From: Asparagopsis taxiformis
Taxonomy: Eukaryota; Rhodophyta; Florideophyceae; Bonnemaisoniales; Bonnemaisoniaceae
NCBI GenBank assembly: GCA_030407315.1
Contig: JALQPE010002004.1
Location: 124,001 to 188,000 of the forward strand
DNA: 64,000 nt
Direction of reading: 5' to 3'
Under the pieces are notes generated by a model. The model was not told the origin of the DNA and did no database searches. It was given only the letters and a program-made list of their open reading frames with translations. Of the stretch, positions 9,695 through 62,930 are shown in pieces (positions within the stretch are counted from its first letter, which is position 1; each line of letters starts with the position of its first letter). Position numbers and translations under genes: made by a program.

Positions 9695-10105
9695 GGTACG
9701 AGTTGAGGTAATCTAAGATTCGGAGGAGGAATGGTGGCGGACGTGGGAAGCGCTGCCGCCGCGATATTTCACAAATGTTGTGGTCCAACGATTTGCTGCT
9801 CACGGCGACTGGAGCGAAAATGAATCAACACGTGTAAGAAATTGGTTGGAAGAATGGTTCAATTAAGAATCAATTTAAAATGAAAGAAAAGAATTATACC
9901 GAGCGATTGCCGTTACACCAAAGTGCAGCGGCACACTCCAGCATTCCAGGTATGATAAGTGCGAGAACGATGGCAAGGAGACACTCGTTCGCGCACTGCG
10001 CTGCAAAACAGTGAAACCTCTTTGTCCGCTGCCTTATCTAATCCGCGACCGTCACAACAGCACCTGCTCCGTCCCATCGGCAGTTCTCGTTTGCTCCCTT
10101 TCCAA
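9695..10105. promoter_or_regulatory. Bidirectional promoter region between JmjC and ubiquilin genes
   Basis: About 410 bp separates the two divergent start codons. There is no clear TATA box on either side. An open frame runs upstream from the ubiquilin start, but the ubiquitin-like fold begins exactly at the ATG at 10106, so the upstream extension was not used. Confidence 0.5.
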
Positions 10106-12154
10106 ATGACGCTCACCATTACCGTCAAGAATACCGCCGGTGCGCGCTTTGAACTCCAAATCCCCGCTCTCACAGAGACTATTGCAGACTTCAAACAACG
10201 ACTTTCACCCCATACGGGTATCCCTGCACTGCAACAACGTCTCATCTTCCGCGGCCATATTCTCCGAGACACCCAGACGTTTGCTGATATCCGCGCAAAA
10301 CATGGTCTCGAGACCGGACATACCATGCATGTCGTACCGTCCCGATCTTCGTCCTCACCCTCGCCGCCCGCAAACCCGCAGACTTCCTCCATTCCATTCA
10401 ACGCCCAGCAGCGTCCGTCGCCCTCGCCCACAGCCCCGTCTATGGGTGGCGCCCCGCTCGGTGGTTTCGGAATGCCCAGCTTTCAGGAAATGCAAAATCA
10501 AGTCATGCAAAATCCAGAGCAAATGCAGGCCGTGCTCAATTCTCCCATGATGGACCGCCTTATGAACAATCCAGAGTTTGCTCGCCGCATAATGATGGCC
10601 AATCCTCAAATGCGCGAATTGGTGGAGAGCAATCCCGAAATTGCGCACGTTCTTAACGATCCCTCCACTCTGCGTGAAATGATGCAGATGGCACGCAACC
10701 CGAGTTTGATGAATGAAATGATGCGCAATTCCGACCGTCAAATGGCCAACATTGAAATGATGCCCGGTGGTTTCGATGCCCTTCGTCGTATGCACGAGAC
10801 CATCCAGGCCCCGCTCATGGATGCTGCCCAGGGAGGTTTCCAGCGTGAAGCTAACAATACTGCTGAAGAAACCAACCCATTTTCTTCGCTCTTCCAGAAT
10901 ACGCCTTCCAATCAGCCAATGCCAAACCCATGGGCCCCCAATAACACCGCAAACCAAACTCCACGTAACCAGCCCACTACTGGCAATGCCTTCGCCTCGC
11001 TCTTCAACAATCCACAGCAGACACCGTCCAATGGTACAGAAGCGCCCCAGCCCCCTCTCGGTCTCGGCTCAATAGACACAGACCAAGTCATGCGTATGCT
11101 GGAAAATCCCATGATGCAGCAAATGCTTGAAAGTGTATTAAGCGATCCGCAGATGTTCGAGGCTTTTGTCGCAAGCTCACCAGAATTTCAACGAATGATG
11201 CGTGGTAACCCGCAAATGGCACAGATGTTTCGTAATCCGGATATGATGCGCACACTTCTCAACCCTGAGTTTATGCGCAGCATGCGCTCTCTTCAGGCTG
11301 GAGTGAACAACGCTAATCCATCTCAGACGCCAGCCACCAACTCCCGTGACACCAATTTTAATTGGTTGAGGCCAAGAACTGAAAACGCAGGTGCCGGAAC
11401 AACCGAGGCCACCACGCGCATCCGTACGTTGAGGGATGCCATGCGGGGTCCGCAAGATCTTCCTGAGTTTTTCCAGCGTGTACGCGCAATTGCCTTCCCG
11501 AATGAAGAACACACCGGTCCCGCACTTTCCCCCACTCCATTTTCGAACGACGCACCTGCCGTCGATGGCGGTATGCCAGCTCAGATCCTGGCACTCATGA
11601 ATACGATGCGTGGTGCACAAGACCTACCTGAATTCTTCCAGCGTGTGGGCACTATGGCGAATGCCGCTCCGTCCGGCCCGCCACTCTCCGCCGTACCATT
11701 CACAAATCCTACCACCGGCACACCCAGCCCAGTTGCAGCAGAAGTACTTCGAGCTCTCCGGGAAGCTATGCGCAACCCATCGGCTTTTTCGCAGAGGAGT
11801 GCCGGGACGGATGCCACACGTTCGGGTGCAAATGGATCAGCCAATGAGGGCACAGGTTCGACAGCTGCTTTGGACGGATTCATGAGAATGATGCAGGAAA
11901 TGGGTCCAGTGAATCCACAGGAACTCACGAATTTGATGCAGAGGATGCCAGGTGCTAATGGTAGCGGTGGTCCGAATGGCACCGCAGCACCGACAATGTC
12001 TCAGGAGCAACTGGAGGAGTTGTACAGCTCACAGTTGGCGCAATTGCGAGAAATGGGCTTCCTCGATACATCCATGTGCTTGCAGGCGCTGCAGCAATCG
12101 CGAGGAAATGTGTCGGCTGCAATCGAGAATCTGATCAACAGATTCGGGGGCTAG
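10106..12154 (+). CDS. Ubiquilin / Dsk2-type ubiquitin receptor
   Basis: The 682-aa protein has the ubiquilin layout. A ubiquitin-like domain spans residues 1-75 (ITVKNTAGARFELQ, then QQRLIFRGHIL). STI1/heat-shock chaperonin-binding repeats lie at about 125-235 and again at 330-395, with many NP, MM and MRNP motifs. The C-terminal UBA domain (last about 45 residues) has the QLREMGFLD motif. Ubiquilins shuttle ubiquitinated or misfolded membrane proteins to the proteasome; the UBL binds the proteasome and the UBA binds ubiquitin. A Pro/Gly-rich linker at about 440-570 holds an extra repeat family not usual in ubiquilins (see findings). The start was chosen where the UBL strand begins. Confidence 0.93.
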   Translation: MTLTITVKNTAGARFELQIPALTETIADFKQRLSPHTGIPALQQRLIFRGHILRDTQTFADIRAKHGLETGHTMHVVPSRSSSSPSPPANPQTSSIPFNAQQRPSPSPTAPSMGGAPLGGFGMPSFQEMQNQVMQNPEQMQAVLNSPMMDRLMNNPEFARRIMMANPQMRELVESNPEIAHVLNDPSTLREMMQMARNPSLMNEMMRNSDRQMANIEMMPGGFDALRRMHETIQAPLMDAAQGGFQREANNTAEETNPFSSLFQNTPSNQPMPNPWAPNNTANQTPRNQPTTGNAFASLFNNPQQTPSNGTEAPQPPLGLGSIDTDQVMRMLENPMMQQMLESVLSDPQMFEAFVASSPEFQRMMRGNPQMAQMFRNPDMMRTLLNPEFMRSMRSLQAGVNNANPSQTPATNSRDTNFNWLRPRTENAGAGTTEATTRIRTLRDAMRGPQDLPEFFQRVRAIAFPNEEHTGPALSPTPFSNDAPAVDGGMPAQILALMNTMRGAQDLPEFFQRVGTMANAAPSGPPLSAVPFTNPTTGTPSPVAAEVLRALREAMRNPSAFSQRSAGTDATRSGANGSANEGTGSTAALDGFMRMMQEMGPVNPQELTNLMQRMPGANGSGGPNGTAAPTMSQEQLEELYSSQLAQLREMGFLDTSMCLQALQQSRGNVSAAIENLINRFGG

Positions 12155-12486: not shown

Positions 12487-14910
12487 CTACTGGCGCCCCC
12501 ATGCACCTGGTCTGCCGTTGTACGGCGTTTCAGAGTTGAACGTGTTCGGGTGCTGTCCCGGTCTGCCTGCCGAATGGTTTGCGCCTCCCGAGTATCCATC
12601 GCCAGTGCCAGGTGGATAGTCGGGGCCGCCGTAGTATCCACCACCTGGCGGGTAATTCGATCCATCATGAGCGGATGGTCGATTTTCGCTCAGTTCCCGA
12701 GCTTCTGTTCTTCGCGCTGTGACAAAACCTTCGACGTCCCTCTTCAACATACTGACTTCGTCCTGCTCTTTGGAGTAAAAGTTAGTCCCTTGCTCCAAGT
12801 GTCCCATTAATTCTCGGAACTTTTGTGCAGGGGCTTGCAGTTTGTATATTTCAGTCATTTTGCGATGTGCGGCAGCACTTGTACCATCGGAAGGCGGTGG
12901 CAACCGTAAACGCACACCGGCATCAGACAGAAATCCAGTAGCGCCCTCCATGTTCTCACGACATTTGGCAGCTCGTTTCTTCAAAGCCCCATATTCCCTT
13001 TCCATAGCTTCTGTGCATTGCTCAATATCAGTTGCCTCATCTGTGATACCAGCCGTAACTGCGTACGGATTCTCCAAATGCTTTTTCTTCTCAAATTCCT
13101 GCACGATAACTTCCTTCTCAGCCAGATAAGTTTTGGCTGTCGCAATTTGCGGCCCTATTTCTGCAACCAGCGCTTCTGTGCGCCGTTGGATCTGTAACGG
13201 ACCGGTAGGTATTGAATCTGCACTCGGGGGCTCAAATCCTGCAATGCTGATTCTATCCACTGCAGCAATTGCGTCTGCGTTGAAGTCGGTCTGACTGGCA
13301 ACAATCTTGTCAGCATTTGCGGCCTGCTCCATTTTTCCACGAATCCTTCTCAGTTTTTCTGTGTACGGCCCTGTTAGTGCATAACTGGGTGGTCTTGTGA
13401 CTTGTATCCGCACTCGCAGCTGACGATCCTCAGAATCCTCAGTATGCAGCAACGACTCAATGGTGTTAATCTGCACCTTGGTCTCACCAGCCATGTTGAT
13501 CACTTCTGCCTGCAATTCTCGTAAAACCCGCATGCCTCCACGTTGATGCACCCAACGCACGGCCTCGATTGCCGCACGTTCGTCCCGCTCCGACGAATTG
13601 CTCGGATTAGTTTCAACAGCGGTTGCAGGTACTGCAGCGCGGGCGGTGCGCAGGGCAGTTGCCGTCTGCACGACAACTTCCTGAAGACGAGACCCCTGCG
13701 TTGTCAAAGACGCAACCTCGTCAGCAATGCAATTTGCCACGATTTCCGCGTAGCGCGCTGCGACGCCGGACAACTCTGGCTGTGTTGTACCGGGCTCCGG
13801 TAGGTTGTCCAGAGACCGAAGTTCGTCTGGGACGGGTTCGCGTTGCAATTCTTCCATAACGGGCGCTGGTTTAACCGACTGACGCGAGGCAATTTCCGAC
13901 ACAGAGGTAGCGGGGGACGCAAAGTAAATCTGACGATTTTCCTCCTGTACCGACCTGTCGCGCTCGTAAACGTTGGCGCGAAGCTGTTCTAGGGCGGCGA
14001 TGAGTTCGTCTCGCAACGTAACAACGGAAGCGAGTGAGGAAACATCTAGCGAGCGAATTGTTTGCAATCCTGCATCAACCGACGCTTTAGCCATTGTGAG
14101 ACGCGTGAGCTGTTGGGGCATGTCATGGGCCTCCCCGCACGCGGACGCCTGCATGGATTCTGCAACACAATCGAAATATGTCTCAAGAGCGGCAGCAGGC
14201 TTGCCCACCAGGCCATTGATGCAAGTATTGACGACATCGGGGTGTCGACACGAGTCCTTAGCAACGGCGTAGAAATCACGGGCACCAACGGCAAAGCGAG
14301 CGAGAAAAGCGGAGCGATTCTGGCTCTCGTCCTTGGTGATCAAGTAGAGCATCTGCTGGGCGTTTCCCAGCATGGCCATCTCCAATGCGCGCAGCGTCTG
14401 CGGGTAGAGGTCGCTGGTGACGGCGCGAATGCCGCCGGGGGTCGGGAGGGCTGCGGCGGCGCGAAAGTAGCCAGCAGCGACCTGGAAGGCCTTTGCGGCG
14501 ACGCGTGTGGCGGTCGGGTCGGTGCGACGGGCCTGGTAGGCGACGACGGCCAGGGAGGCTTCGCAAACTGCGAGGTTGAAAAGGGCGGAGACGCGGTCGA
14601 TTTCGAGCTGATGTAGGGCGCAATGATTGTTGCCATCAAAGGCGTTGACCCAGAGCAAGGCGACGGGCAGCTCGGAAATGGCGGTGGTTTGCGACACGTG
14701 GTTCAAGGCGGCGAGATAACGTTTGATTCCGGCACGCGTCGCTTCGGTTGTCGGCGGCTCGTGCAGCGCGGCGCGTAATGTTTGGAATTTACGACAGGCG
14801 GTGACGGTGTTGGCCGCGGCTGATTCGCCGCGTGATGTCGCGATCGCATTGTACAGCGCTGAGTTGACGTCCACTTTTTGCGCTAGCTTGGCGCCGGGGA
14901 TCAGGAACAT
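12487..14910 (-). CDS. BRO1-domain protein (ALIX / Bro1 / PalA family)
   Basis: The 807-aa protein starts at MFLIPGAKLAQKVDV, where BRO1 domains normally begin; an open extension of 45 codons upstream lacks similarity and was not used. BRO1 domain at about residues 1-370 (with the IKRYLAALNHV and LWVNAF segments and an NLAVCEASLAV helix), a long helical V-domain at about 390-740, and a Gly/Pro/Tyr-rich tail (about 755-807) with PPGGGYYGG-like motifs. Family members bind the ESCRT-III subunit CHMP4/Snf7 through BRO1 and act in multivesicular-body sorting, membrane repair, cytokinesis or pH signalling. The Pro/Tyr-rich tail is the usual partner-binding end. ALIX versus PalA/Rim20 cannot be decided here. 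Confidence 0.85.
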   Translation of the reverse strand: MFLIPGAKLAQKVDVNSALYNAIATSRGESAAANTVTACRKFQTLRAALHEPPTTEATRAGIKRYLAALNHVSQTTAISELPVALLWVNAFDGNNHCALHQLEIDRVSALFNLAVCEASLAVVAYQARRTDPTATRVAAKAFQVAAGYFRAAAALPTPGGIRAVTSDLYPQTLRALEMAMLGNAQQMLYLITKDESQNRSAFLARFAVGARDFYAVAKDSCRHPDVVNTCINGLVGKPAAALETYFDCVAESMQASACGEAHDMPQQLTRLTMAKASVDAGLQTIRSLDVSSLASVVTLRDELIAALEQLRANVYERDRSVQEENRQIYFASPATSVSEIASRQSVKPAPVMEELQREPVPDELRSLDNLPEPGTTQPELSGVAARYAEIVANCIADEVASLTTQGSRLQEVVVQTATALRTARAAVPATAVETNPSNSSERDERAAIEAVRWVHQRGGMRVLRELQAEVINMAGETKVQINTIESLLHTEDSEDRQLRVRIQVTRPPSYALTGPYTEKLRRIRGKMEQAANADKIVASQTDFNADAIAAVDRISIAGFEPPSADSIPTGPLQIQRRTEALVAEIGPQIATAKTYLAEKEVIVQEFEKKKHLENPYAVTAGITDEATDIEQCTEAMEREYGALKKRAAKCRENMEGATGFLSDAGVRLRLPPPSDGTSAAAHRKMTEIYKLQAPAQKFRELMGHLEQGTNFYSKEQDEVSMLKRDVEGFVTARRTEARELSENRPSAHDGSNYPPGGGYYGGPDYPPGTGDGYSGGANHSAGRPGQHPNTFNSETPYNGRPGAWGRQ

Positions 14911-16222
14911 CTCGGGACGGATGTGGTGCTCGCGTTGCGCAGAGGGCTGGTCGATCAGTGGGTAATGCGCGGAAAAGGTGGGCAATTTATCGGCGAGTTC
15001 ATGGTCGTCTACGAACACGAATGCCAACAATGTGCGGTGTGGCACATTCCAGATTGCAACGTCCAGTCGTGTAGTGAAGGATAAAAAATTCTCAGGTGGA
15101 TGTTGGCATTACAGTAGGGTTTGTGGTTGTCATAACAATCGTTGTGTAGACGTGTGTAGGCGCACGTCGGAGCACAGCGATGTTGAGGAGCGGCAGCATG
15201 ACATAACATTGGTATCTCTTGCGTTAGTGACAATCATGGCGCCGGTTTCTCTGGTGCAACTGGGTGCATGTTGTGTGCACGCTTCTTCCGGACCAGATCA
15301 GGTACGTTTCACACGCCCGAGAGGCGACGCCGGCAAAATATGCACTGCTGAACGGGTTGGATGTAGCGGCATAGTTGGCACGCTACATGTTTCTGTTGCA
15401 GTTGCCGGAACAGATGGCGCATGAATTGGTCTATAACAACGGGACGATTGTGGAATACACGAGCCAAAGCCGCAATGTGTAACAAAAAAGTAGGAGCGTT
15501 TATACCTTTCCCCAAGTGCAAATGGATTTCACTTGTAGCACTTGCTTGAGCACAACACAAAAGAAATGTGCAGACTGCACATCTTTGTGCTGTTGACAAA
15601 CTTCGACATCAAGTTGTACAAAGATAGGTACGATACAAAGTTATTGTCCGTCATGTAAGTTACGAGCGTACGGACTAGTTCCGAAACGATCCATGCCTGA
15701 CACTATCGACGTGTACCATACGGACCACCGTGGATTGGTCCGATAGGCCCTAAACAAATAAACGAACATTTGGGTTGTAAGCCACATCTGGTTTGCAATT
15801 TTGCTGCCCTGGCAAATTTCAATTTGGATGCGCGTGTTCAAATAATCGAGGGTCGTCTCCGATGAGCATCGGCCGCACCAAACCACACAATTTGTCAGGT
15901 TTGTGCGGAAAGCGCTGTGGAGGATAGGGCGGCAACATACGTTGCACGCTTAAAAATAGCTCGGCGTGGAGGATAACGCTGTTCCGTAGTGCTGCATTCT
16001 TTACGTGCCATCAATGATACATGTGTAGCTGTCATCATTCGCTGAGTGCATTCCCACTACGTCAACAACGATGCAGCTGCCAGGCCATGGCCAAAACGCA
16101 TATCATGTCAAAATTTACATTTCCTAAATCATCCCGCATTGCGCTATTCCGCAGTCTGCCGCCGCAATGGACTTCTCCATGGCATAAGCCTTTGGCCAAA
16201 CAAGCAAACACCAGTATACAAC
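14911..16222. other. Intergenic between divergent genes
   Basis: About 1.3 kb with no domain-bearing frame. It should hold the promoters of the BRO1 gene (left) and the small membrane-protein gene (right). Confidence 0.5.
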
Positions 16223-47608: not shown

Positions 47609-50600
47609 ATGCCCCGCACGAAAAACGGGTCTCGCAACCGTCGTGCCGATGCCGCAAACAAATCAGGTAACAATAGACCTGGTAGAAAGGCCGCATCCAG
47701 TCGCCAGCAGAAGAATCTTCAAATCTGTCATGCCTTCCAACAAGTTGGCACCTGTTCCAGAGGTGATGCGTGCCGCTTTCAGCACCCTGCACCACCCCAG
47801 TCTCAATCGGTAGACCGCTCATTATCCGAGCCCTCACGTCTCGTCGCAGATTTTGCTGCACGCATATCAGCAACCGTTCGGAACAGAAAATTTCGCCTTT
47901 CCCTTGATGATCCCCATACTCGTTCTCTGTGGATGCAAACATGGGCCGCATGTGCCTCGAGTACGAACATTCCGTACGGAGCAGATCTTATTCGTGCACT
48001 CATGAAACTACCAGATTCTACAGCTATTTTCCCACCAGTTGCACATGTTCTACAGGTGCTTCATGCAGTTAGTAAAATGTGTGCACAGAAGTCGGGGCAT
48101 GTGATGGCAACACTACAGATTGTCGCTGATGTTATCGAGAGTCGCTTGATGCATCGAGCTGATCTTGTGCCTGTTCACTCTCTGAACGTCTGTATAGATA
48201 CCGTGAAAGATCTGCGCATTGCTGTACATACAGCACTTCTTCATGTATTATCAGATGTTTACCAATCTGAAAGAGCATCTCATCTTCTCGGTCGAATGCT
48301 GTCGCTGCTGGAGCGCTACGCTCGACAACTTGAGAAGCAAGAAAATGATGGAGAGAGAAACGATGTGTATGCAAAGGAGCAAACAGCAATCGCATGGATT
48401 GGGTGGCGCAACCCGACCCTATCATGGCTGCAGTTCGGAAAATGGTTAGACATCCCTTCCGTAAGGGACGAATACGAAAGCATAGATGACTATGTTGACA
48501 AATCATGTCAACTTGTCACTATGATGACATTCTACTGGGGTGCAGGAGCCCTGTTTCCAAAATGCCGTCACAAAGGACCCGACGACCGCACATGTGACCA
48601 ACCCCTCGTTAGGTATATTCGAAACTCGAACAGGTCATGTGGCCGGAAGCTGTCCAAAGGTTCTATATGCAACTCTCCAGTTAACTGGGGTTGCTCTCGT
48701 CATAGTCATGACGCGTCATGTGCCAGATGCCTTCGTAAAATCCAAAATGGATTGGTGGGACACCCAGGGCATAGGGCATCCACAGACATCTATGATGCTG
48801 TTGTAGAACGTGAGACAAGACGCCGCGACGGATATGTATACATCGTTTCCGGTTTGAAATCGCGGAAGCCACCCTCCATAGCCCCTAATTGGAAAACTAC
48901 GTACCGTCTGAACTGCTGCGCCCTCGTCGCAGTGATCAGACTCAGTGCATCCTACCAGCCACTTTCACGCGAGAGCCGCATTGAATGGGCAGAAGTAGTT
49001 CCCGTCAATATCAAGGAAGGTTCAGTGACTGACTTTCAGAACCGGAAAAATGGTCGTATGGCATTCAGATTTCTGTCCAAGACAGATTTGTCAACTCTAG
49101 AGGTGAATTCTGAGCCACTGGAGGCCGGAACTCACCTTGCCATTATTGACCTGCAGGTTTTTGTTCCAGAGGTTATCTCCGTGTTATCTACTACTTCCGA
49201 TTCAGCATTCGGGAACCACTTGAAACAATTGCCGTTTTCTGAAAGGCTGATCGGCAGTGAGCCTCTTACGCCTATGAAGTTGGGATCTCAAAATGTCGGA
49301 GAAGTTCTTGCCGACGTTGTTGCAAGTACAGAATTGAACGTGATCAGAAAACTACCACACTATCAACAAAAAAATCTTCTCAAGGAGCTTACTGCCCTCG
49401 CAAAACGTTTCAATCTTTACGGGACTCAACTTGAGGCATTCTCTGCTGCGCTTTCGACATCTTTGCATTGTACGCAGGGGCCACCAGGTAAGTCTTTTCA
49501 GTTCTGTTTTTCTTATTCAACTCGCTCATCTATCGCAACGCATCTTTTTGGGCTAGCTATGGGAATTGTATTTTGAACATAACGTCCATGAACCAGATGA
49601 CCTGACTTTTTCGTTCTATTCAATGTGTGTCAGGAACTGGAAAATCTTATGTGGGTGTTGCACTGATTCATGCTCTTGACATTATTCGTAGCTATGCTAT
49701 TGGGGCTGGTGATACCGTGGGGCCAATTGTTGTTCTGTCATACAAGAACCATGCATTGGAGGAAATTCTTCTGGATGTACTCAAGAGTAGTAAACGAGGA
49801 GGAATATCCAGTGGATTGATCCGTTGCGGAAGGTCCGAGGATACCCGTCTAGAACAATACGGAGAGAAGTCTTCTCCAGCAGAAAGAGCAGCAGAAAAAG
49901 TCCTCACCCATCGCATTTCCTGTTTGCGCACAGTGCAGAGAGTGTCTAGAGACTGGTATTCGTTGAGCTCAATACTATCTTCTGCCTCTACAGGCGATGC
50001 GCAAAACGAGTTGAGGTCATGGAAACCAATTCACTTACAGGATGACACATTTTCCGGACATGAACCATTTGCTGTTTCGTTTATTCAAGCAGTAATTCTC
50101 AGTCTTCGATCAGACGATTCAACCGAACATAAATCTCATGAAGAAGCGTTTGAAATCCTTGCAGCGCTACCCGGAGGGTCTATTGGACTTTCTGTTGGTG
50201 AAGAATGTGCGCTTTTGGAAAAGATTAATGGACTTCAGACAGACATGGAACACTGGCATGCACCACCAGACGTTTGTAGGCCAGTATTCCTCCTGGAGAA
50301 TTGGCTAATAGGTCGTACTCCTCCTCCACGTTGCCAGGCCAATCGAGAAGGCGAGAATGGATGCCTTCTGAGTTCCCCACGTGAAGGTTCCTACTGCGTA
50401 GAACTTCATGACTGCAAATTTTCGAGACCATGCGAACGGCGGCGTATCGAGGGGATTTTGTTCTGTAATCATCACCGCTGCATGGTTGATACTGAAACTG
50501 AGAATCCATGTCCCAGACCAAGGGTTGATGACAGTACTGTTTGTCTTGAACATGCGTGCCGTTGGTGTCTTCATCTTCACCGCTCTCCGATTCTGCCAAG

Positions 50601-53600
50601 AGTTGATCAAGCATGCACAGAACATACATGTAGAGAAGATAAATGCGGCAACATGTATCTTTCCAATATGCTTCCGTTTTGTCGGAAACATTGCTGCCGC
50701 ATATGTGGTTACGCTTCAGTGAATGAGGGGATTTTCAAAGTCATGTCAGTTCGAAGAACCGAGGCCTCAGAATTCTGTGAAGACCACAAATGTATAGTTC
50801 CTGATTGTACAGGCTATCGTATCCATGATCATATGCGGCAAGATTTTTGTGGTCTTCATGCATGCGCTGTTTGTCATGGGAAGCGCCAGTTGGTCGATAA
50901 GAATATTCCTCATTCTCGAGTCTGCCCGGACCACCGCTGCAAACATGTGGACCCTGCTACGAAAGTGGAACTATGTCAATATGCAAAGGAACCTGATTCC
51001 CTCTTTTGTCGAGGTCATATATGTCAGTTCTGTCGCGATGAAAAACTTCCCTTAAATCGACAGGTAGAGGACTTTCCCCCGCGTAATGCCTGTGCTATAC
51101 ATCTGCTTTGCAGTCATATTTCCGTGCACGGTGAAATGTGCAATTCCAGAGTACCTCATCCACACCAAAAATATTGTTTGGAGCATGTCCAACGAAAGAA
51201 AGGTAAATCTCGCCTCAATGATGGCGTAGGTGTCAAGAGGCAATGTGAAGGGACTACAAGCAAAAGGAAACGGTGTAAGTCGCGAGGATTTTCCGACAGC
51301 AAAACCTATTTTTGCGATGTGCATCTCGATCAAGCCCCAGAATCTTCATCGGAATCTGAAAAGGAAGATGACTTGGAAGATGGATATGAAAGTGCTGCTT
51401 CCAAGGAAAGGGCCGTTATCGATTGGGAAGAATCAGAGGGTGAGCTGTTAAAGACTGTAAATGCTACTCTCTCGCACGATCCTTTGGAAAACCAAGAGAC
51501 TGGAGACCGAACAGTCCAAAACCAACGTTCTTCTATTGGAAATGATCTAAAGGGGTCTGATGCGGACGATTCTGTCACTTCCGAAGATACTGTCGCTTCT
51601 GAAGATACGGCCATTTGTCCTGGACTTGCGCATCCTATTGAATCATCAAATGAAGAGGTGAACAAAGATCGACCTGATGCATCAGATGCTGATTTGCGTA
51701 ATTCTGATCTCGCAACAAATGGAAAAATGTGTGGGGTGAGTGGCTCCTCTACTGGCTCACAATCCTTTTGCCCTAATCATATTGAACAGGGGAAGTCTCA
51801 AGATTTGGAAAGCCCTATCGCTGCTGAAGACGAAAAAGTATCCTCTGATTTAGCTGAATCAGACGAGGAGGATAGTTCTACTAACACAGTCTCCTCTGAG
51901 GACTCCAATCGAGGGGTGGAACGAATTGTGTTTGGTACCTGTCCTGATGAGCTAGATATCGCAAGCTCTGAATCAGACTCTAGTGGTAGCGAGCTCCCAG
52001 AACAACTGCAGCACCTCCGAGACATTGTGGGAGGCGATGAGGCATCTGGTTCAGAATCTGAAGAAGATCTAGCCCCTATTAACGATGAAAAAGAACTTAT
52101 TGGCGAGACGTTCACTAGTCAGCCGGGCGCGTGGAGCTGGAATCAGCCGCTTTCGGAACGATGGTACTCAGCTGCTGTTCTACTGCGTCGTGTTTGTATG
52201 AATGTTGATGCATTATTGAAGCTGGCTGATGGATATGTTGAGCGAGCCAGAGATGAAAGAGCAGAAGCTTCCGCATACACCTTGAAGATGGCACGGGTGA
52301 TCGGCGCCACAGTTGTTGGTGCCACGAAACGTTTGCATGCAATTCGAGCTTCAGAACCCTTCGCCATGGTTGTCGAGGAAGCCTGTGAAGTTCTCGAACC
52401 TACCCTTGTTTCTGTTCTTGCAGTGAAATCGCTTCGCAAGCTTGAATTAATTGGGGATCATCGCCAACTACCTGCTTTCGTTCAACAAAGTTGGTTTGCT
52501 TTACAGATGACCCATCCGTTTCTAAAAGTTTCTTTATTTGAACGACTTGTGAAGAGTGATGCGAACATGGGAGGAGATTCTGCATGTACAATCCTTGATG
52601 AACAACGAAGAATGCGACCAGAAATATGTGACCTTACGAGAGTTGAATATTCTGACGTTGTTGATATCCAGGATAATAAGGTTACAATCTCCCAGCTGGT
52701 TGGCGATCGAAGCCGTTCTCCCACACTCATCGAAGAGAGGAACCTTTGGCATAAGAAGGGCTCGGTTATTCCAGGCGTCAAACAGCAAGTATTTTTCTGG
52801 AATCTCGACTTTAAGGAACAACGTGCAGCTGTTGGGCTTTCGCGTTGCAATCATGGTGAAGCTGAAGCATGTGCTTCCCTTGTGAACTGGCTGATGTATT
52901 GCGGTGTACCACCTAATGCAATAACCGTTATTACGCCATACAAGGGACAAAAGCTCACCATCATCCAGGAATTACGTCGGAGAAAAAGTTCTAATCAGAG
53001 AATTACGGATGTCTTTGTTTCCACTGTAGATCGGTATCAAGGGGACGAGAATGATATCGTAATTCTATCCCTTGTGTCCACGCGACCAGGGAACCGATTT
53101 GTTGCTTTGCGGAATCGCTTTATTGTGGCGTGTTCCCGGGCACGCTTAGGTTTTTATATCCTTGGTTCTTCTCATGCTGTTTCCAAAACTGTTCGAGGAG
53201 GCGACGGTCCATCTCACTGGTGCCGACTTTTACAGGACTTGGAAATTCCTGGGAAGCCTTGCTCAACAAATCAAAACATGCGAAGTAAGAACTTTCGAAT
53301 TGGACGAAAGCTCATGTTACGTTGTCCACGACATGAGGAGATTGAAAAAGAGGTATCGAACGCTAATGAGATACCTCAAAATATCAAAGAGACTGGGAAT
53401 TTTTGTTCTATTCAGTGTTCTTTCAAGCTTCCATGGTGTGGTCATTCATGTTCACTTCCGTGTCATTCTATCTCTCGCATAGCCCATTCATCAAACTGTG
53501 AAGTTCCTGTACTACGGCCTTGTTCGCGTCATCAGAATGTATCACTTATTTGCTCCGATGTCAAGAAGGAGATGGAAAAAATGCATTCCTCGCTTGGAGA

Positions 53601-56600
53601 GGCTCTTGAAAGTTTCAAATGTGAAGTTGAGATGGAATATTACCGTTTTGACTGTTCCCATTCAGTTATGATGCCTTGTCACGCATATGATTCGCTCATG
53701 CTCGATGGGTCAAGACTTTCTCCATGCACTAGGATAGTAGGAGACTATGTGCATCCATCATGCGGGCATGTACGTGAAAAACCGAAATGCTTCGAACGTC
53801 TGAAGTGGGAAGATGAGCCTCCTCTTTGTTTTGAAAAGGTTGTTCATGAGCGCAAATGTGGTTGTAAAGCACAGATGGCTTGTCATAAAAGGATTGCAGA
53901 GCTATCAATGGATAATCCGCCTCGCTGTCAAGAAGCAGTCGTCACATCTAGACCGCGCTGTTCGCATCGTATCTCGATACGCTGCTACGAAGCGACTCTT
54001 CTTCGTGACCTTTGGTATGAAGAAGAAGGTGAGAGTATATTATCCAATCCCCCGCTTGTCATTCATGGACTCGATTATGGTCGCTCGGAGTCCGCCCTGA
54101 GCAAATTATATCCATGTTTCGACAAAATCCTTCCCACATGTGGTGTCATGACGTCATATCGCATGTCTTGTGGCCACATCAGGACTGGTCAGTGTTCAGA
54201 AGTATTTGAACTTGCAATGGGATTGAAAGATGAACCCGTCTGTAGAGACAAATGTAATTTCAAAAGCCCGATATGCGGCCACAATATTGAAGCTTCTTGT
54301 AGACTGCGAAGTATTTCTCAAAAGAATCAGGCATCTGTCTGGAGGGAGATGAAGAACGACGAAGGTGTGTTCAAGCAAGTCGCCACTGAAGCTGATATTT
54401 TAGCCGCACTTCCTATCGATTCGGATCTGAGCAAATTGAACAAGTTATGTCCCAAGTCCGTGTCAGTAATTCTAGGTTGTGGGCACGAGGTTGATGGAAT
54501 ACGTTGCTCTAATATCGGGTTGATTTTGAAATCGAAGAAGCTACCATTGTGTAGGACACGAGTTGAAATTAGCCGTTCATGTGGTCATGTTTACCAAACG
54601 ACATGCTCTCAACTTGGTGAGCAACCCCCTCCCTGTACCAACCCTGTGGATGACTGGTTTACTTTTCCGTGTGGGAAGTTAAGTCATAGGATTCAACCGG
54701 GTACATGCAGTGAACTTTCTCGGCTTCAAAATCTCACGTACCCTAAATGCGAGACCCTGGTTCGCTGTGTTCGCGCACGATGCACGCATTCTGTTGAAGT
54801 CCCATGCTATCATGAGATCGATGCCAGCATTGCTCTCCCTGGGAAGTGCCTCGACCCAGGGTCAACATCACTTATTGTCGAATCAGATGTGGACTACTGT
54901 GAGGAACGAACTGGTTTTGTGGACTGTTTAGAGCCCATTATGTACCGCAGGCAATGTGGCCATGTCGAAAGTGACGTGCCGTGCAAACTTGCTTTTGATT
55001 GGTCTGCATGCATTGAAGACCCTCCTCCATGCCAGAAGCTTGTTGAGATCGATTCTCCTCTATGCAAACATTCCCTACAAGTCTCATGTTGTTTCAAAGG
55101 AACTATGTTAGCCTTGAACCCATGGGGCGGTGAGCCACCAGAGCGCATTGTTTTACATTTAGGTGATGATGTCACTACCTGTCCAGTCGTGAATGAATAT
55201 TGTGCTCCTGTTGAACCATCTAAGCAGATGATCTCATTACTCCATTGTGGTCGCACTACACGCATGATATGGTCTTGTGGACATGAAGAAGATGTACCAT
55301 GTGAAAAGGTTTTTTCTGTAATCCACACACCCTGCACGAAGCTAGAGAGCACCCTTTGTACTACTTGTGAAAATGTCATTGAAATGAAATGCCATGAATT
55401 ACGCGATGCGTCGTTTCCCATTATCTGTAAGAATCTCGTGGAGAAGAAGTGCTCCACCTGCAAAATCAACTCAACGAAGGTCGAATGTTACCGTGAAGCG
55501 ACCTGCTGCGAAAAAGAAGTTCATGCTGATTTGTCCTGCGGACACCCAGTATCCTGGAAGTGTGGGGACGTTGATCCTCGCACTAAGGTCGATACCGAGC
55601 CTTGTATTACTTGCACACGATTGGAATGGGAAACTGCGTTGAGTAGAGTTGGAGATTTCTTGGAACATCAAAAGAAAGAGCACTCTTTGACAAGAGCTGT
55701 CAAAAACGCAATACATGCAAGTGCAGCAGAAGCAAGAATGGGTAAAGCAGAAGGCCCCAAGCAATCTGGAGTGTTCAATGCACCACTGCTCTTTGAAGAA
55801 CTGAAAACCAGAGTTCTGAATACACTTCCTTCCTCAAGTGTAGTGAATCAGAAAGATCGAACTCCTGTGGACGTTGAGCCTCTACTAAGAGCTTATTTGG
55901 ACATTGCCCAACGTCATTCAGATTTACTTGGGGAAGCTATTATTAACGAAGCAGATGACGGAATTGTTGTTGGTCCCCCTCCAGACATCTCTGATGCAGA
56001 AGGTTCGTATAACATTATATATGAGGTGATTGGCGAGGGGAACCCGAAATATGTCCTTCGTCCAGTTGAGACACAGTATGGTCGTGGGGTGCGAGGAAGG
56101 GCTCTCAACATTGAGAGACTCTATAAAGATTTCTCCGAAAGAAGCGGAGGCGACTTCAACATAGTCGTTGCAGCTGCATTGAACTACCGTTGTGCAAGTG
56201 ATGTCAAACCATTTCGACCAGAAAGGTCGGACATCAAGCATGAAAAGAATACTGCGTCCTTTGCAAAGCAAATCAGGAAACAAGATAGGAAGGCAAGGAA
56301 AGTCATGCAGCAATATATCGGAAAAGGCTTTGATTACGCTTCGAGGGCTGATGAGTCGCTTTCACATGTATATTGGATTCCAGATTGTATTGTACCTCTG
56401 TTTGAGCTGACATTGGAGCTTCAAGAGACATGTCAGGTATGTATGGAAGAGGTTTCTCGTCGGGCAGGCTGGTTCTGCCCAAATGTACACTTTCTTTGTC
56501 GCGAATGTTTCGTCAATTATGCTATGCAAGCAAAACGTCCGGATGCTATTGCCAGTGCAATTAATGAAAATGGGATGTTGCGATGTCCAGAGAGGGGATG

Positions 56601-57192
56601 TGATACGATATATGAGCCTCTTCTTCTACTATCCCAGCCTCATGATGCCTCGCAGGAAGAATTACATAGCTGTTTCGAAGCGCTTCAGAACTTGAAACTT
56701 ACTATCCATACGAAGCAGGAAGTTCATGCAGCATTGGATGAGCAGCGTAGACAGCTTGAGGCAGAGTTCCAACGAATTCAGCATATCGAGGACCGCGAAG
56801 AAAGGAGGGCTGAAACTTTAAGACTAGAAATTACGGATCGAATTCTGACGTTGCGTTGTCCGAACAAGGCTTGCAGAAGAGCATTCCTAGACTTTGACGG
56901 ATGCTTTGCAGTGAGGTGCTTATTCTGCGGAGTAAGTTTTTGTGCTTGGTGCATTGATTATTACAGTGACGATGCTCATGCTCACGTTCTCACATGTGCA
57001 GAATCGACAGCTCCTGGCGAGTACTATGAATCGCTCGAAGCTTTCAACCGGCACCAGAGACAGCGCCGTAAGAGGCTCCTGGTTGAAAAATTAGGGCATG
57101 AAGATACAGATGTTCGTAACCGCACACTCAAGCTTATTCGAACCGACCTGGAAGATCTTGGTATTATACTTGATGCTAGTCATTGGACTTAA
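47609..57192 (+). CDS. Giant ZNFX1/NFX1-type SF1 helicase with CCCH, CxxHxC and CGH zinc-finger arrays and a RING/IBR-like C-terminus
   Basis: Exon 1 is 47609-49487, the intron 49488-49633 (146 nt, GTAAGT...TGTCAG, CTGAC at 49602) and exon 2 49634-57192; 3145 aa in one frame. Domains: CCCH finger C40/C49/C55/H59; SF1 helicase with Walker A GPPGTGKS (about 624-631, spanning the splice junction), motif Ia VVLSYKNHALEE, motif II VVEEACEV (about 1539), GDHRQLPA, DEQRRMRPEI, VDRYQGDENDIVILSLV and VACSRARLGFY (about 1793). Between Ia and II is an insert of CxxHxC fingers (about 860-1195) and an acidic Ser-rich stretch (1195-1455). About 13 CGH/CxH fingers of NFX1 style lie at 1836-2622. A RING-like and an IBR/RING2-like module lie at 2893-3085. 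ZNFX1 relatives bind RNA in small-RNA inheritance or antiviral defence. A ubiquitin-ligase role for the C-terminus is inferred. Confidence 0.88.
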
Positions 57193-57372: not shown

Positions 57373-58788
57373 TTACTTTCTCCTCTTCTTCGACTTTGCC
57401 TTGCCTTTTCCCTTGGTGTTGACTGTCGCCTTACGCTTGGTGGTCTCCTTCGGTACGCCACTGTTGTTGTCGAAGGAATCCTCACAAATTTCTAAAATGG
57501 GTAACTTGTCAAAAATTGATTTCTCCTCTTCTGCATTTTCACCAGTTCCCACTTCAACAATCATACCGCAGAACGCTCCACCCATAGCCACCTGTTTGGT
57601 CACCAGCCCCTCCAGACTATCAACCGCCTTGGGCTTTGTCGAGCTCTTCGGCACTCCCTTTCCATATCCGAGTTCCCCAAACGTCGGCGAACCGCCCCAA
57701 GTGATGACACTGCGTTCCGACGCCACAGCGGTCGACGACGGACCGGACGACATGCTTCTGATCACCCAACCCTGCAAGTCGAATATTGGCTTTGGATACA
57801 TATTACTTTCGCCCGACTTTTTCGTCACGCCCCACATGTACATGGACTTGCGCTGTGTCTGAATCGCGAAACTAGACGACGCACCGGCAGTAATCGCATC
57901 GATCGAATACACATCTGCTTTGAAAGTGTCGATCAAACGCGGTCGAAGCTCATCCTTCGGAGTTGTATGTCCGAGACGTCCATACCCGCCAAAGCCCCAG
58001 CTCCAGACCTTTCCATTTTCATCGAGCACAAGCGCATGATTGGAGCCGGCAGCGATCTGTTTAGCGCGAACCCGTCCAGACTGGGCGCCGAATGCATCGA
58101 CAGGAACAGGCGTCTTCTCCACGGCATACACGACGCGGTTACCAGTTCCAATCGTCTCGCCGGTGCGACCCTGTCCCAGCTGGCCGTACTGGCCGCTGCC
58201 AGCTGCGAACACGGCGCCGGATTTGGTGGCGATCAGCGAAAAGTCAGCGCCAGCGGCGGCCTGAACCGCGTGCTCTGCGGGGGGCAGGGCAACAATCTGC
58301 CATTCAGAGACTTCTGGCTGGCGCAGCTCGGTTGTGGATCCATTGGCGAGCTGGCCGAATGCATTGTGGCCGACGGAGAAGGCGCGCCCGCTATCGGAGA
58401 CCAGAATGGTGTGCTGGCGGCCGCATGTGGCATGAACGATGCGCTCGGAGGGGTCGAGGGGCGGCTTGAGAAGCACGGGATGGTGACGACTGATGAGGTC
58501 CGGTAGGCCGAGCTGGGCAGAGTCGTTGCGTCCTAGTCCGTACGCGGCGCCTTTGTCATCGATGAGCACGAGGTGGGCGGCGAGCGGACCGGTGTAGATC
58601 GAGACAAAGGTCGTGTCAGACGGCAGACCTGTGAAATGCAGACGTGTGGGGCAGATGAGCTGGGGTCCCGGACGGGAGTTGCCGCGGTTGGCCACTGCTT
58701 TGGGGAGCGTTTTGCGTCCGATTAGATCCCAGGAGGTTGAGCCGGAGAGTAAGAAATGAGTTTTGGGCACAGGCGATTGCTGGGTCAT
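57373..58788 (-). CDS. RCC2 (TD-60)-like RCC1-repeat protein
   Basis: The 471-aa protein opens with the RCC2 signature GSTSWDLIGRK, then about seven RCC1 beta-propeller blades (e.g. GRNDSAQLGLPD, GHNAFGQLANG, GSGQYGQLGQG, GFGGYGRLGH, PTFGELGYGKG). It ends in a basic nuclear-signal tail rich in Lys (KGKGKAKSKKRRK). RCC2 acts in mitotic spindle and centromere function and Rac/Arf signalling in animals. In algae the role is unstudied as far as I know. The stop is 180 bp from the stop of the giant helicase gene on the other strand. Confidence 0.85.
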   Translation of the reverse strand: MTQQSPVPKTHFLLSGSTSWDLIGRKTLPKAVANRGNSRPGPQLICPTRLHFTGLPSDTTFVSIYTGPLAAHLVLIDDKGAAYGLGRNDSAQLGLPDLISRHHPVLLKPPLDPSERIVHATCGRQHTILVSDSGRAFSVGHNAFGQLANGSTTELRQPEVSEWQIVALPPAEHAVQAAAGADFSLIATKSGAVFAAGSGQYGQLGQGRTGETIGTGNRVVYAVEKTPVPVDAFGAQSGRVRAKQIAAGSNHALVLDENGKVWSWGFGGYGRLGHTTPKDELRPRLIDTFKADVYSIDAITAGASSSFAIQTQRKSMYMWGVTKKSGESNMYPKPIFDLQGWVIRSMSSGPSSTAVASERSVITWGGSPTFGELGYGKGVPKSSTKPKAVDSLEGLVTKQVAMGGAFCGMIVEVGTGENAEEEKSIFDKLPILEICEDSFDNNSGVPKETTKRKATVNTKGKGKAKSKKRRK

Positions 58789-58997
58789 GATGGGAGCGTA
58801 GGTGTATGGAATTGCTTGGCTGGCCGGAGATTGTTGGGCGACGACAGATTGCTCGTGTTATGAGTACTTGTGTCGAAAAATGGCGGGAGTTGTTCCATCA
58901 TTGGCAATGCACAAATCATACTCACGTGATCTTTCATTCATTTACCCCGAAATTTATCAAAATTCACTCTAAACAGTATGTACGTACTGTACTACCA

Positions 58998-61900
58998 TCA
59001 TTGCGCTGTCTCTTGGCCCTTGTCACCTTCGCCGCCAGCAGGGTCGTCTTTTTCATCCTTTTCCTTTTCATCGTCTTCATCCGTGTATCTGAATGGCTCC
59101 GGAACTGGAACGTCCTCTCCGTCCTCCTCTTCATCCACAATTCTCGCCACCTGCACCCCAGCTGCTGCTTGCGTGCCTCCAGTTCCCGTGCTTCGTGGTG
59201 CAACTGTCGATAGACTCTGCATTTGCACCAGATTCTCTTCCTTGCCTGGTGTCAGGTCACGAACCATCACAATACCACTCGTTCGGCCCTTGACAACCGG
59301 CTCATACCGTTTCACTGCTCCGTCCTTGTCTGCTATTGAAATGTCCCACGAGATGTACTTCTCCTGAGTAGGCAGCACTCGACATGGATTCTCAAACAGC
59401 GACTGCGAAGTCGTTTCAACTTCTTCCTCCTTCTCAACCTTACTTTCCTCCATGGGCGTCGCTTCATTCTCAGTTTCTTTCACAACTACTGCCTCCTCTC
59501 CAGCCTTCTTCTTTCGCCGCGCCTCCCTGGCTTTTGATTTTGCCGTAACACTCAGCACAGCCGTCGGTGCCCGTGTAGCCTCCTTACTCTTCTCCGGCGG
59601 TCCAGATGGTACATACGCGTATATTCCTTCTTGCACATCACATTGCACCTTGAGTTTGGGCATCTTCACGTCCTTGTTCAGAGCAATCAGAGCAGATGGC
59701 TTAATACTCAGTCCAATGAAATGCACCATAGGATACCAGTACCAGAACTGCGTAAACATAGCTAGCCCAACAATAGCTGTCATACGCGGATGACCAGTGC
59801 TACTCGTCAACGCAATCACACCGTTTCGTCCACCAGCATCCGCCACACCTGCCGCCACAACGGCACCAAATCGTGTAACAGCATCCTCAAGCTTCGCACT
59901 CCATGTCGCCTCAAAAGTCTTGCGCATCTCACCAGCCTTTGGTGAACGCTGCTCAGTATGGTGCATGTACACAAGTGCCAAACCAATGAGCGCACCTTGT
60001 CGCACAAAATCAGTCGGATCTGCCGTAAGCCTTTCAAGCATATCAACCGCTGCCGGCATACCTGTTCCCATGCAAGCAATTCCAATCGCAATCGCTGCAC
60101 CGTACCTAACATGAGCATGGCAACTCTCAGCAAGCAGTGCAACGATACGCGGGAGAAGCTTGGGGTGTCTGAACAGCACAAAACCAAGCGCAATTACCGC
60201 AGCACGACGTACATCATCGTTCACATCGGAAACCGCCGAGTGCAAAAGTGATCGAATCGCCTTATTATCAGCCGTCCCACAGTACGCAAGCGCAATAGCA
60301 TACATTGCACCATAGCGAAGAATGGGATCACTGTTGCTGTTCATAGTTTCAATGGTATCTTGAGCCTCATCTTCTCGACCGTAGCAGACGAGGGCCATAC
60401 CGACGGCGAGACCACGAGAAATTTTCTCATGCTCCGTTCCGGTTGCGTAGGCAAGCATTTCAGCACAGACGCGTTCTGAGCCCGAACCCAGAGCTACAAG
60501 TCCCATTCCAAGACCAGCAGCCTCACTTGCAACGGCATGGTCAGTATATAGTACATTCTTCAACTCTTCATAGTACTCATTTTCATCATTACCACCATCC
60601 CAAGAGGCCATCATAGACAAACCTAGGCCAAGACATGCACCATGTTTGACAACATCACTGTCAGTCGCACGAAGACCTTCGAGCAGATATTGTTTAGCTG
60701 AAACCGTTTCGCCATTGGGCTTCACGTTGAGGGTGGCATCCCGACCGCCGGTCGCCGCGATGAGACCAAGAGCGTAAAGCGCGCCTCCCTCAGAGTACGC
60801 AGTACCCAGAGAGCCGCTGCCACCACCGGCAGATGGCAGATATGGAGACAGTAAATTTAGAGCTGCGGAGGTATGACGACCATGAATAACCCCAAGGCAT
60901 GAAGTAGCAGAGAATTTAGCCCACGCCGTAGCGCGTGCAAGCCATTCGAGATTGTCTCGCAAGAAAGTATCAATTGCAGTGCCACTATGTGCGATAGCAT
61001 TGGAGAATATCAACGCGGAGTGACACACACTGCTTCGACCATCGAGCGCTTGCTTGATCTTCTTCAGTAGATACGGATCGGACCGGTTCTTACTGCATAG
61101 GAAATCGAGGTATAGCTCAGCTGCTGCATCACCATTGAGGATTTTACGCAACTTGGTAATCTTGATTTCTTCATTCGTTAGTGGAGTTGGTTCTGGAGCC
61201 GAGGCTGGTGCAGTCTCCTCTGCAGCTGGGGTATCGGTTTCCATTGGGACAGGAGAATTTGCATCTGCCTCAGTCGAGTTCTGTGCCGCAGGCGTCGTGG
61301 CCTCGCCGGACGCTGGTGCAGATTCCTCTACGATCGGTCCAGTAGGCGCGGCTGCTGAAGAAGATGCAGTAGGTATTTTGGGAGCCGGTAGCATCGACAT
61401 GACTTTGGAAGCAAAGAATGGAGCGTCATTATCCACAATATCAAAAGCAATTTGTAAAGCAGTCAATTCTAAATCCGACTCATTCTCGCGACCGCCAACA
61501 TTTTCCTCTCGAACAAGGCTCATAAGCACTTCGGCTACGCCTTCAGCATTACCAACAAAAGCGTAGCAGTTTGAAACAGCAATGTAATTACGCTTGTCTT
61601 GAGGAAAGTGCTTCATGTGAATCATAGCGATGAGATTAAGCACACGGCCGCGATACGCCCGTGAAGCAACCAGTGTTTGAGCACATTCAAAGCAATAGGA
61701 AAGTGCCTCCATACGAGACTCGTCAGTTTTGCAGCCACCCAGAATGGCCAATTCGACTTTGTCAAGACGGCGCGATTCAATGGCGACACCGATAGCCTCA
61801 TGGATTTCTCCTTTGCGGATACAGCCTTCCAGCACGCGCTCAACGACGGATTCCAACTCTGCCATAAAGGCGTGATGAGCACTGGAAGCGGCTTCATCCG

Positions 61901-62285
61901 AGGCTGCGGCTTCACTCTGCCTCACTTTCACTGCGATGTATTCATCGATGCAACGCGCGCGAAGAGTATTGGCAAATTCGGTTTCAGCATCCACGTCGAA
62001 CAGGACACCTGCAGAAAGTGCGTAATGCAGTGCCTCATCGAGCGATCCGAGATGGAAGTTGACCTTTGCGGCAACGATCGCAGCGAGATTTTTGTCAGGG
62101 AAGGCGTCGTCTTCGGAAAGTTCTTGGATTTTATCGACTGCACCAGAAATCTCTGGCCAGAACGAATCGGCTAGAGCATTGAGAGAGCGTAGTGCGTGCG
62201 CTTGTAGGATCGGCTCTTGTTCCTCCAGCAGAGACAATGCTGGTGCCGCGGAACTAGGGACAATCGATGCGAGTGCTACGCTCAT
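58998..62285 (-). CDS. RPN2: 26S proteasome regulatory subunit RPN2 / PSMD1
   Basis: The 1095-aa protein forms the base-scaffold of the 19S regulatory particle. The start at MSVALASIVPSS was chosen; 16 further codons upstream are open but unlike the family. An N-terminal helical rod is followed by the toroid of proteasome/cyclosome repeats (GGALYALGLIAATGG, HGACLGLGLSMMA, AAGLGMGLVALG, YGAMYAIALAYCG, YGAAIAIGIACMG). An acidic/Ser-Ala-Pro insert lies at about 310-385. A Lys/Glu-rich insert follows at about 930-985, and the C-terminus is acidic with PFRYTDEDD. It is longer than human PSMD1 (953) mainly through these low-complexity inserts. Tandem with the RCC2-like gene, 209 bp apart. Confidence 0.95.
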   Translation of the reverse strand: MSVALASIVPSSAAPALSLLEEQEPILQAHALRSLNALADSFWPEISGAVDKIQELSEDDAFPDKNLAAIVAAKVNFHLGSLDEALHYALSAGVLFDVDAETEFANTLRARCIDEYIAVKVRQSEAAASDEAASSAHHAFMAELESVVERVLEGCIRKGEIHEAIGVAIESRRLDKVELAILGGCKTDESRMEALSYCFECAQTLVASRAYRGRVLNLIAMIHMKHFPQDKRNYIAVSNCYAFVGNAEGVAEVLMSLVREENVGGRENESDLELTALQIAFDIVDNDAPFFASKVMSMLPAPKIPTASSSAAAPTGPIVEESAPASGEATTPAAQNSTEADANSPVPMETDTPAAEETAPASAPEPTPLTNEEIKITKLRKILNGDAAAELYLDFLCSKNRSDPYLLKKIKQALDGRSSVCHSALIFSNAIAHSGTAIDTFLRDNLEWLARATAWAKFSATSCLGVIHGRHTSAALNLLSPYLPSAGGGSGSLGTAYSEGGALYALGLIAATGGRDATLNVKPNGETVSAKQYLLEGLRATDSDVVKHGACLGLGLSMMASWDGGNDENEYYEELKNVLYTDHAVASEAAGLGMGLVALGSGSERVCAEMLAYATGTEHEKISRGLAVGMALVCYGREDEAQDTIETMNSNSDPILRYGAMYAIALAYCGTADNKAIRSLLHSAVSDVNDDVRRAAVIALGFVLFRHPKLLPRIVALLAESCHAHVRYGAAIAIGIACMGTGMPAAVDMLERLTADPTDFVRQGALIGLALVYMHHTEQRSPKAGEMRKTFEATWSAKLEDAVTRFGAVVAAGVADAGGRNGVIALTSSTGHPRMTAIVGLAMFTQFWYWYPMVHFIGLSIKPSALIALNKDVKMPKLKVQCDVQEGIYAYVPSGPPEKSKEATRAPTAVLSVTAKSKAREARRKKKAGEEAVVVKETENEATPMEESKVEKEEEVETTSQSLFENPCRVLPTQEKYISWDISIADKDGAVKRYEPVVKGRTSGIVMVRDLTPGKEENLVQMQSLSTVAPRSTGTGGTQAAAGVQVARIVDEEEDGEDVPVPEPFRYTDEDDEKEKDEKDDPAGGEGDKGQETAQ

Positions 62286-62930
62286 TGTGGTGGATTGCGC
62301 AACACAGAGATTCTGAGCTGAGCGGTTGGACACTGAGAGGAAAGTTTATCTCGCAAACACGGGCGTGTAGTCAGCAAGATGCGTATGGACGATGAGATGA
62401 TAGCGGGGGGAGGCTGTAGAGTTGGGTAGGCGAATAACAATGGCCAATTGAAGGCCTTCCAGACGATGAAATGGGGATTTCTGCACCCATCGTTTTGGAC
62501 CGGCTCTGACAAAAATGCTGGAACCGACAAGGACAGCCTGTCTTGAAACGGATAAGCCAATTGCGACATACTGTACAAATTATTCCAAAATCTCTGCAAC
62601 TGTCCTGGCTGAATGATGCCTGAAAACGATTCTGCACGTGACGAAGACAACGGCATTGAGTTGAATAGCCCCTATCCCTTCAAGTCTCTTTATTTTAGAC
62701 AACTGTTCTCATTGACCTTTTGGTCCTCACTAAATGCACAGGCATAGGGAAGAAAGGGAGGAGCGACATAACGTCAAGTCGAGGGTAATGAAGTGTTGCA
62801 TTTCCAGAGTTTACTTTGCAGAGCTGATTTAGTCTTCGAGGAAACCAACTTTCGAAACGCTGCACGACAGATGAGCTCCCGAGCCAAATGTCACGATATA
62901 CAAAGTGGGTTGATGAGGCATCGGAACGAT
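62286..62930. other. Spacer between eS8 and RPN2 genes
   Basis: 645 bp containing the eS8 3' UTR and the RPN2 promoter. No other gene was seen. Confidence 0.5.

Follow-up and report, generated by a model that had tools for sequence, protein, structure and literature searches.

Human ZNFX1 is described in PMC13270118 as an RNA-activated ubiquitin ligase (E3) whose activator is long single-stranded RNA together with ATP; in that paper's account of Grabarczyk 2025 and Squair 2026, the helicase and the E3 lie in one chain. The broad idea of a helicase and an E3 in a single polypeptide is therefore not new, and the report of the RNA-activated human enzyme is recent. Other described proteins come close in different ways. 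RNF213 is presented in PMC12075652 as a giant ATPase with a thioester-forming E3 that acts in cell-autonomous immunity. The Helicase/Plant I subfamily of RBR ligases, ancient according to PMC2904391, carries a DEAD/DEAH helicase and a full RBR in one chain. Finally, PMC12687431 describes ADP-ribosyltransferase-family proteins that work with an E3 in the PARP9/DTX3L/PARP14 system.

How does the Asparagopsis taxiformis protein encoded in the window (the whole stretch of 64,000 nucleotides that was analysed) compare with these systems? It shares with human ZNFX1 an SF1 helicase, ZNFX1 being the closest by sequence, a Cys-rich array behind the helicase and an E3-like end in the same chain. The human E3 is of the RZ type, whereas here RZ was not found; the Asparagopsis protein has a RING1-Rcat tail, an ART-like domain, a CCCH finger and an inserted array, and its helicase falls in a different helicase group from the RZ-bearing proteins. 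RNF213 likewise combines a giant ATPase with an E3, but uses an AAA core and an RZ finger instead of an SF1 helicase and RING1-Rcat. Members of the Helicase/Plant I subfamily also join a helicase to an RBR ligase in a single chain; theirs is a DEAD/DEAH helicase with a complete RBR, whereas the helicase here is of the SF1 AAA_11/AAA_12 ZNFX1 type and the ligase has no IBR. PARP9, DTX3L and PARP14 are separate proteins with a Deltex-type E3, in contrast to an ART-like domain that sits in the same chain and has no conserved His. The PADLOC model of MkoA, the anti-phage helicase of Mokosh, matches the helicase part (2.3e-36), and the rest is not common to both. With a probability of roughly 0.7, we take the Asparagopsis protein to be an SF1 RNA helicase related to ZNFX1 and equipped with a thioester-forming, RNA-dependent E3 of its own, whose activity is predicted.

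The gene lies on the forward strand, as do all of its features given below, and joining and translating its exons yields 3145 codons plus a stop, with no internal stop. Exon 1 (47609..49487), delimited by the open frame, the splice site in the sequence and the joined translation, covers residues 1-626 and ends one base into codon 627; exon 2 (49634..57192) supplies the other two bases of that codon and continues through residue 3145 to the stop. Between them, a single GT..AG intron of 146 bp (49488..49633) falls inside Walker A, and its splicing restores the motif at the GPPG/TGKS junction. Both exons and the intron were recovered, and the coordinates and length of the spliced frame in the first-pass annotation were right. 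One stop-to-stop frame runs for 2528 codons, and several homologs of 3000-3300 aa have an identical part order. Judged from sequence, the long frame and these homologs rule out a giant reading frame of chance origin and speak strongly against several distinct genes; because several such relatives keep the same order, we take the locus to be a single gene.

Most of the parts that the annotation had listed ahead of the tail are present. A CCCH finger at residues 38-60 (47720..47788) passes the Pfam zf-CCCH cut-off (24.7 bits, cut-off 20.5), and a Cys/His cluster read from the translation lies at residues 319-374 (48563..48730) in a segment present in homologs. The main SF1 helicase motifs, labelled I, Ia, II, III, IV, V and VI, were all located, with motifs I and Ia in residues 624-670 and motifs II-VI in residues 1539-1797. 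AAA_12 (110 bits) and AAA_11 (39 bits) both exceed their cut-off of 27, and the second part of the helicase, comprising the end of AAA_11, AAA_12 and motifs II-VI, maps to residues 1496-1806 (52240..53172). Motif II reads VVEEACE in the Asparagopsis protein, IIEEAAE in P0106 and IVEEAAE in P0115; a pattern search for motif II in P0104 gave no match. The inserted finger array is a CxxHxC-type Cys/His array between motifs Ia and II, at residues about 860-1190 (50332..51324), which is kept in many homologs and matched no Pfam family at E<=10. It is followed by an acidic, Ser-rich spacer seen in the translation at residues about 1191-1450 (51325..52104), which is probably disordered. In all, motifs Ia and II stand about 870 residues apart, this acidic stretch included. 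The array annotated as NFX1-style exists as a CGH...C array at residues about 1855-2640 (53317..55674), recognized in the translation and by hhalign to animal ZNFX1 tails, but zf-NF-X1 falls below its cut-off (8.2 bits, cut-off 22.7) and the label rests on similarity to the animal ZNFX1 profile. The Pfam profile search that the annotation had proposed returned AAA_11 and AAA_12, left zf-NF-X1 below its cut-off and gave IBR, likewise below its cut-off, as the best name for the last finger of the protein.

What kind of module is the C-terminus? The annotation had claimed a Cys-rich, RING/IBR-like module and had proposed a structure prediction for it. An AlphaFold2 model of the tail (residues 2725-3145, with 30 homologs) has a mean pLDDT of 88.9. 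RING1, at residues 2893-2952 (56431..56610), is of the RBR type, and its model matches RNF216 in structure comparison. In the place of the IBR, DSSP of the model assigns a predicted helical hairpin to residues 2967-3031 (56653..56847), followed by a domain resembling Rcat (RING2) at residues 3035-3081 (56857..56997), to which Pfam gives the names IBR, IBR_1 and IBR_2. An IBR/BRcat between RING1 and Rcat is absent: residues 2950-3034 hold one cysteine, the non-conserved C2973, and are predicted to form helices. The module is ligase-like, but reads better as RING1 and Rcat than as RING and IBR. Homology and the confident tail model bear out the pairing of a ZNFX1-like helicase with a ubiquitin-ligase-like end in one chain, with that correction to the nature of the end.

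The candidate catalytic cysteine is C3050 (codon at 56902..56904), which aligns to the GC position of CUL9, ARIH1 and ARIH2. In a tail alignment of 66 rows, consisting of the Asparagopsis protein and 65 homologs after five partial homologs were dropped, C3050 is invariant and the other RING1 and Rcat Cys/His positions are invariant or nearly so. Because nine conserved Cys/His exist besides it, C3050 looks spare. The RBR ligases RNF216, parkin, ARIH1/2 and CUL9 share the RING1 fold and an Rcat-type domain with a Cys at the catalytic position, whereas they possess an IBR/BRcat where the Asparagopsis protein has a predicted helical hairpin. RBRs usually have a His two residues past the catalytic Cys, whereas Ala replaces it in 61 of the 66 rows. 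One of the invariant residues H3075 and H3077 may be spare, and our guess is that it could serve as the base.

Could the tail instead work as an ordinary RING E3, or serve as a zinc module with a structural role, RING1 recruiting the E2, the last finger acting as a scaffold like an IBR and C3050 being kept for folding rather than for catalysis? The Pfam names point that way, since across 20 members the last finger is called IBR_1 in 19, IBR_2 in 11 and IBR in five; the best label for the Asparagopsis finger itself is IBR (E 0.00056, 20.4 bits, below the cut-off of 24.3). Its opening is an IBR-like C-x4-C (C3035-x4-C3040), and most rows have no His two residues past C3050, which also suits a scaffold. 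Furthermore, canonical RINGs have a linchpin directly past the last RING Cys, and K or R occupies this place after RING1 in 25 of 66 rows. Against this reading, the Rcat spacing C-P-x1-4-C-x9-C-x4-C-x1-6-C-x4-C-x2-C...HxH-x3-C, with its C-x9-C-x4-C core, fits 64 of 66 rows (the first pair is C-x2-C in 44 of the 64), and the third finger of two RBRs from the same genome reads C-x2-C-x9-C-x4-C-x1-2-C-x4-C-x2-C. The spare look of C3050 also tells against a folding role, and the BRcat/IBR is described in PMC3940038 as lacking the catalytic Cys despite its Rcat fold.

Profile comparisons bear on both readings. In the RBR proteins P0123 and P0124, which have an IBR above the Pfam cut-off after a RING below it, the 66-row profile matches the third finger (E 2.2e-27 and 6.9e-29) and not the IBR (1.6 and 0.72). 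Their third finger is 44-45% identical to the Asparagopsis protein over 121-124 residues, and the RING1 profile barely matches their RING1 (0.12 and 0.0037), which is of another type than that of the family. These two proteins, with the same type of Rcat, also give weak DEAH11-KH matches (E 0.014-0.045). Of the three arguments for an Rcat, the others being the spacing and the PDB profile search, these third-finger matches are the strongest. For the two RBRs from the Asparagopsis genome, L011 is picked up through its third finger by the 66-row profile (E 1.9e-4; best of 200 shuffles 2.4), whose listed matches do not include L012, and L012 is picked up by the RING1 profile (E 1.5e-4; best shuffle 0.075), whose listed matches do not include L011. 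Against PDB sequences, a 20-row Rcat profile matches CUL9 (2.6e-5), ARIH1 (0.0012), parkin (0.0021) and ARIH2 (0.0022), with weaker matches to HOIL-1, HOIP, RNF4 and the unrelated eS27, ADF and a viral glycoprotein. In CUL9 the third domain, which by its order is RING2, reaches 27.3 bits and the preceding domain -10.3; in ARIH2 the values are 21.1 and 2.9. In one parkin fragment the IBR almost equals RING2 (12.7 vs 14.4 bits). The last finger is thus better read as an Rcat with a Cys at the catalytic position, putatively catalytic, and we consider a plain RING or structural module unlikely.

Just before RING1, residues 2742-2890 (55978..56424) are predicted to adopt an ART/PARP-like fold on the basis of AlphaFold2 models with Foldseek and VIA matches. 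The assignment is at the level of fold, and a sequence-level search for ART/PARP in these residues gave no support. A conserved catalytic His or Glu is absent: at best, a column has His in 23 of 70 rows and Glu in 24 of 70, and the column of residue 2870 has E or D in 34 of 70 rows and Ser in the Asparagopsis protein. The modelled domain is most likely a binding or regulatory module and not an enzyme. PARP-type pieces are fused to the helicase/E3 family at three positions in P0122, P0044 and P0108: after Rcat, between helicase and array, and after the helicase.

How might a helicase with its own ligase work? The helicase and zinc arrays would grip RNA under ATP control, RNA binding being suggested by the family only. 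RNA engagement would free or align the tail, a switch that we propose because of the analogy with human ZNFX1, where long single-stranded RNA and ATP activate the E3. E2~ubiquitin would bind RING1, and the ubiquitin would pass to C3050 and from there to the protein itself, neighbouring RNP proteins or possibly RNA. Such transfer would mark or cluster the bound RNA. A precedent for RING1-to-Rcat transfer in the absence of an IBR was not found in the literature. By analogy, a one-protein role in RNA surveillance or defence, as the annotation had suggested, would be a fair inference.

Using the helicase-array part as the query, we detected 207 homologs. Among the best 120 of these, the two closest are 54% identical, and the nearest named relatives are the red algae Gracilaria domingensis (49%), Agarophyton chilense (47%) and Chondrus crispus (46%). 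The C-terminal module is present in 70 of the 120, including the named entries Agarophyton, Chondrus, Chrysophaeum, Ochromonas, Ectocarpus and Cymbomonas; Agarophyton and Chondrus are red algae, Chrysophaeum is a pelagophyte and Cymbomonas a green alga. In the Gracilaria entry the module is retained as far as the GC position, in the Dinobryon entry RING1 is retained and the end is broken, and the Chromera entry stops before the module. In the 141-Mb Asparagopsis assembly, the module occurs once at E<=0.01. The same genome contains a 1519-codon open reading frame with an SF1 helicase end (AAA_11, AAA_12), for example L010:2075-6631 (-), where a repeat-coding stretch adjoins it. The same 42.6-bit score recurs in 26 of the 50 AAA_11 matches listed, so this frame seems to exist in many near-identical copies and may be a mobile element or an expanded family.

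A phylogeny of the helicase core, also proposed in the first-pass annotation, was built with FastTree from helicase second halves (111 of 121 sequences, shorter or weaker matches dropped; midpoint root, no outgroup). It places the RING-Rcat group apart from the RZ-bearing group. One group of 21 tips holds six RZ-labelled proteins, a conifer protein that bears a PARP and 14 tips with no label (split support 1.0), a second of 10 tips holds six AAA-labelled and four unlabelled ones (support 0.998), and a third of 80 tips holds 68 with a RING-Rcat head (support 0.946). The RZ and AAA labels are precomputed Pfam annotation, confirmed for P0082 and P0090 (AAA) and P0106 (RZ). The group of 80 joins the AAA group with support 0.98, apart from the RZ-holding group of 21 (support 1.0). 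The remaining 12 of the 80 look truncated because all end within 116 residues of the last matched segment. Head type follows clade in the helicase tree. P0082 and P0090, named Mayamaea and Rhizoclosmatium, belong to the neighbouring helicase group and have, by Pfam, several AAA+ modules (four AAA stretches and three, respectively) with AAA_lid_6 at the end instead of a ligase.

The helicase itself is nearest to ZNFX1 by sequence comparison: among PDB sequences, exon 2 matches ZNFX1 9q9z best (E 1.5e-34). Aquarius (8.2e-21), yeast NAM7 (1.6e-18) and human UPF1 (7.7e-16) come next, and IGHMBP2 and SEN1 match as well. These further SF1 matches, and the fact that zinc arrays often bind nucleic acid, would suit a housekeeping RNA or DNA helicase whose Cys-rich tail does nothing but bind nucleic acid and plays no part as a ligase; the retention of C3050 and most RING1/Rcat Cys/His positions across all 66 rows makes this quite improbable. 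In hhalign comparisons with profiles of 20 animal-type ZNFX1 relatives, the region before the helicase matches with a probability of 98.5 over 205 columns, which include the end of the P-loop, and the CGH array behind it matches animal ZNFX1 tails with 99.7 over 513 columns, a value that may be inflated by its Cys-richness. The match begins only near residue 395, which bears on whether an ARM-type fold is present at the N-terminus. That the protein is a true ZNFX1 family member, acting in the same way through an undetected RZ-type finger, would fit the resemblance of helicase, pre-helicase region and array, but is already disfavoured and highly improbable. A search for ZnF_RZ at E<=10 drew a blank in residues 2860-3145 and in residues 1870-2630, as did one of exon 2 at E<=0.1, while this library recognizes RZ in the sponge protein P0106 (E 1.1e-20). 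The ZNFX1 domain PF25396 gave no match at E<=0.1, and the tree splits the RZ-holding group from the AAA and RING-Rcat groups.

A broader reading is one that we put forward tentatively. An old superfamily of ZNFX1-type helicases would carry group-specific heads: an RZ E3 in animals, AAA+ repeats in another group, and an ART-preceded, IBR-less RING1-Rcat in red algae and several protist groups. On that view, the Asparagopsis protein is a transthiolating E3 that RNA would activate and whose type is undescribed, the hairpin doing the job of the IBR and the ubiquitin chemistry perhaps being tied to ADP-ribose. In human ZNFX1 the pairing works with a different head, and helicases and RBR ligases have met before in the 'Helicase' RBR subfamily described in PMC2904391. 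If true, the broader reading would point to an old solution that couples RNA-helicase action with the transfer of ubiquitin and has an exchangeable catalytic end. Moreover, it would provide an RBR-like enzyme that naturally lacks an IBR, making the need for an IBR directly testable.

Literature searches returned no paper joining ZNFX1, red algae and helicase, and none joining NFX1-type zinc finger, ubiquitin ligase and algae. An IBR-less RBR was absent from the literature matches listed, which are a small part of all matches and hence a weak indication; a viral protein has been proposed as an 'atypical RBR' (PMC6901176). We found no description of a protein that joins an SF1 ZNFX1-type helicase both to a RING1-Rcat lacking the IBR and to an ART-like domain, and what is new here is the ligase head and its group. 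Elsewhere in the window, genes for an RCC1-repeat protein (57373-58857, -) and the proteasome subunit RPN2 (58998-62345, -) lie downstream on the opposite strand, and a ubiquilin-like gene (9959-12154) and an ALIX/BRO1-like gene (12487-15108) lie further away. All four are probably ordinary neighbours.
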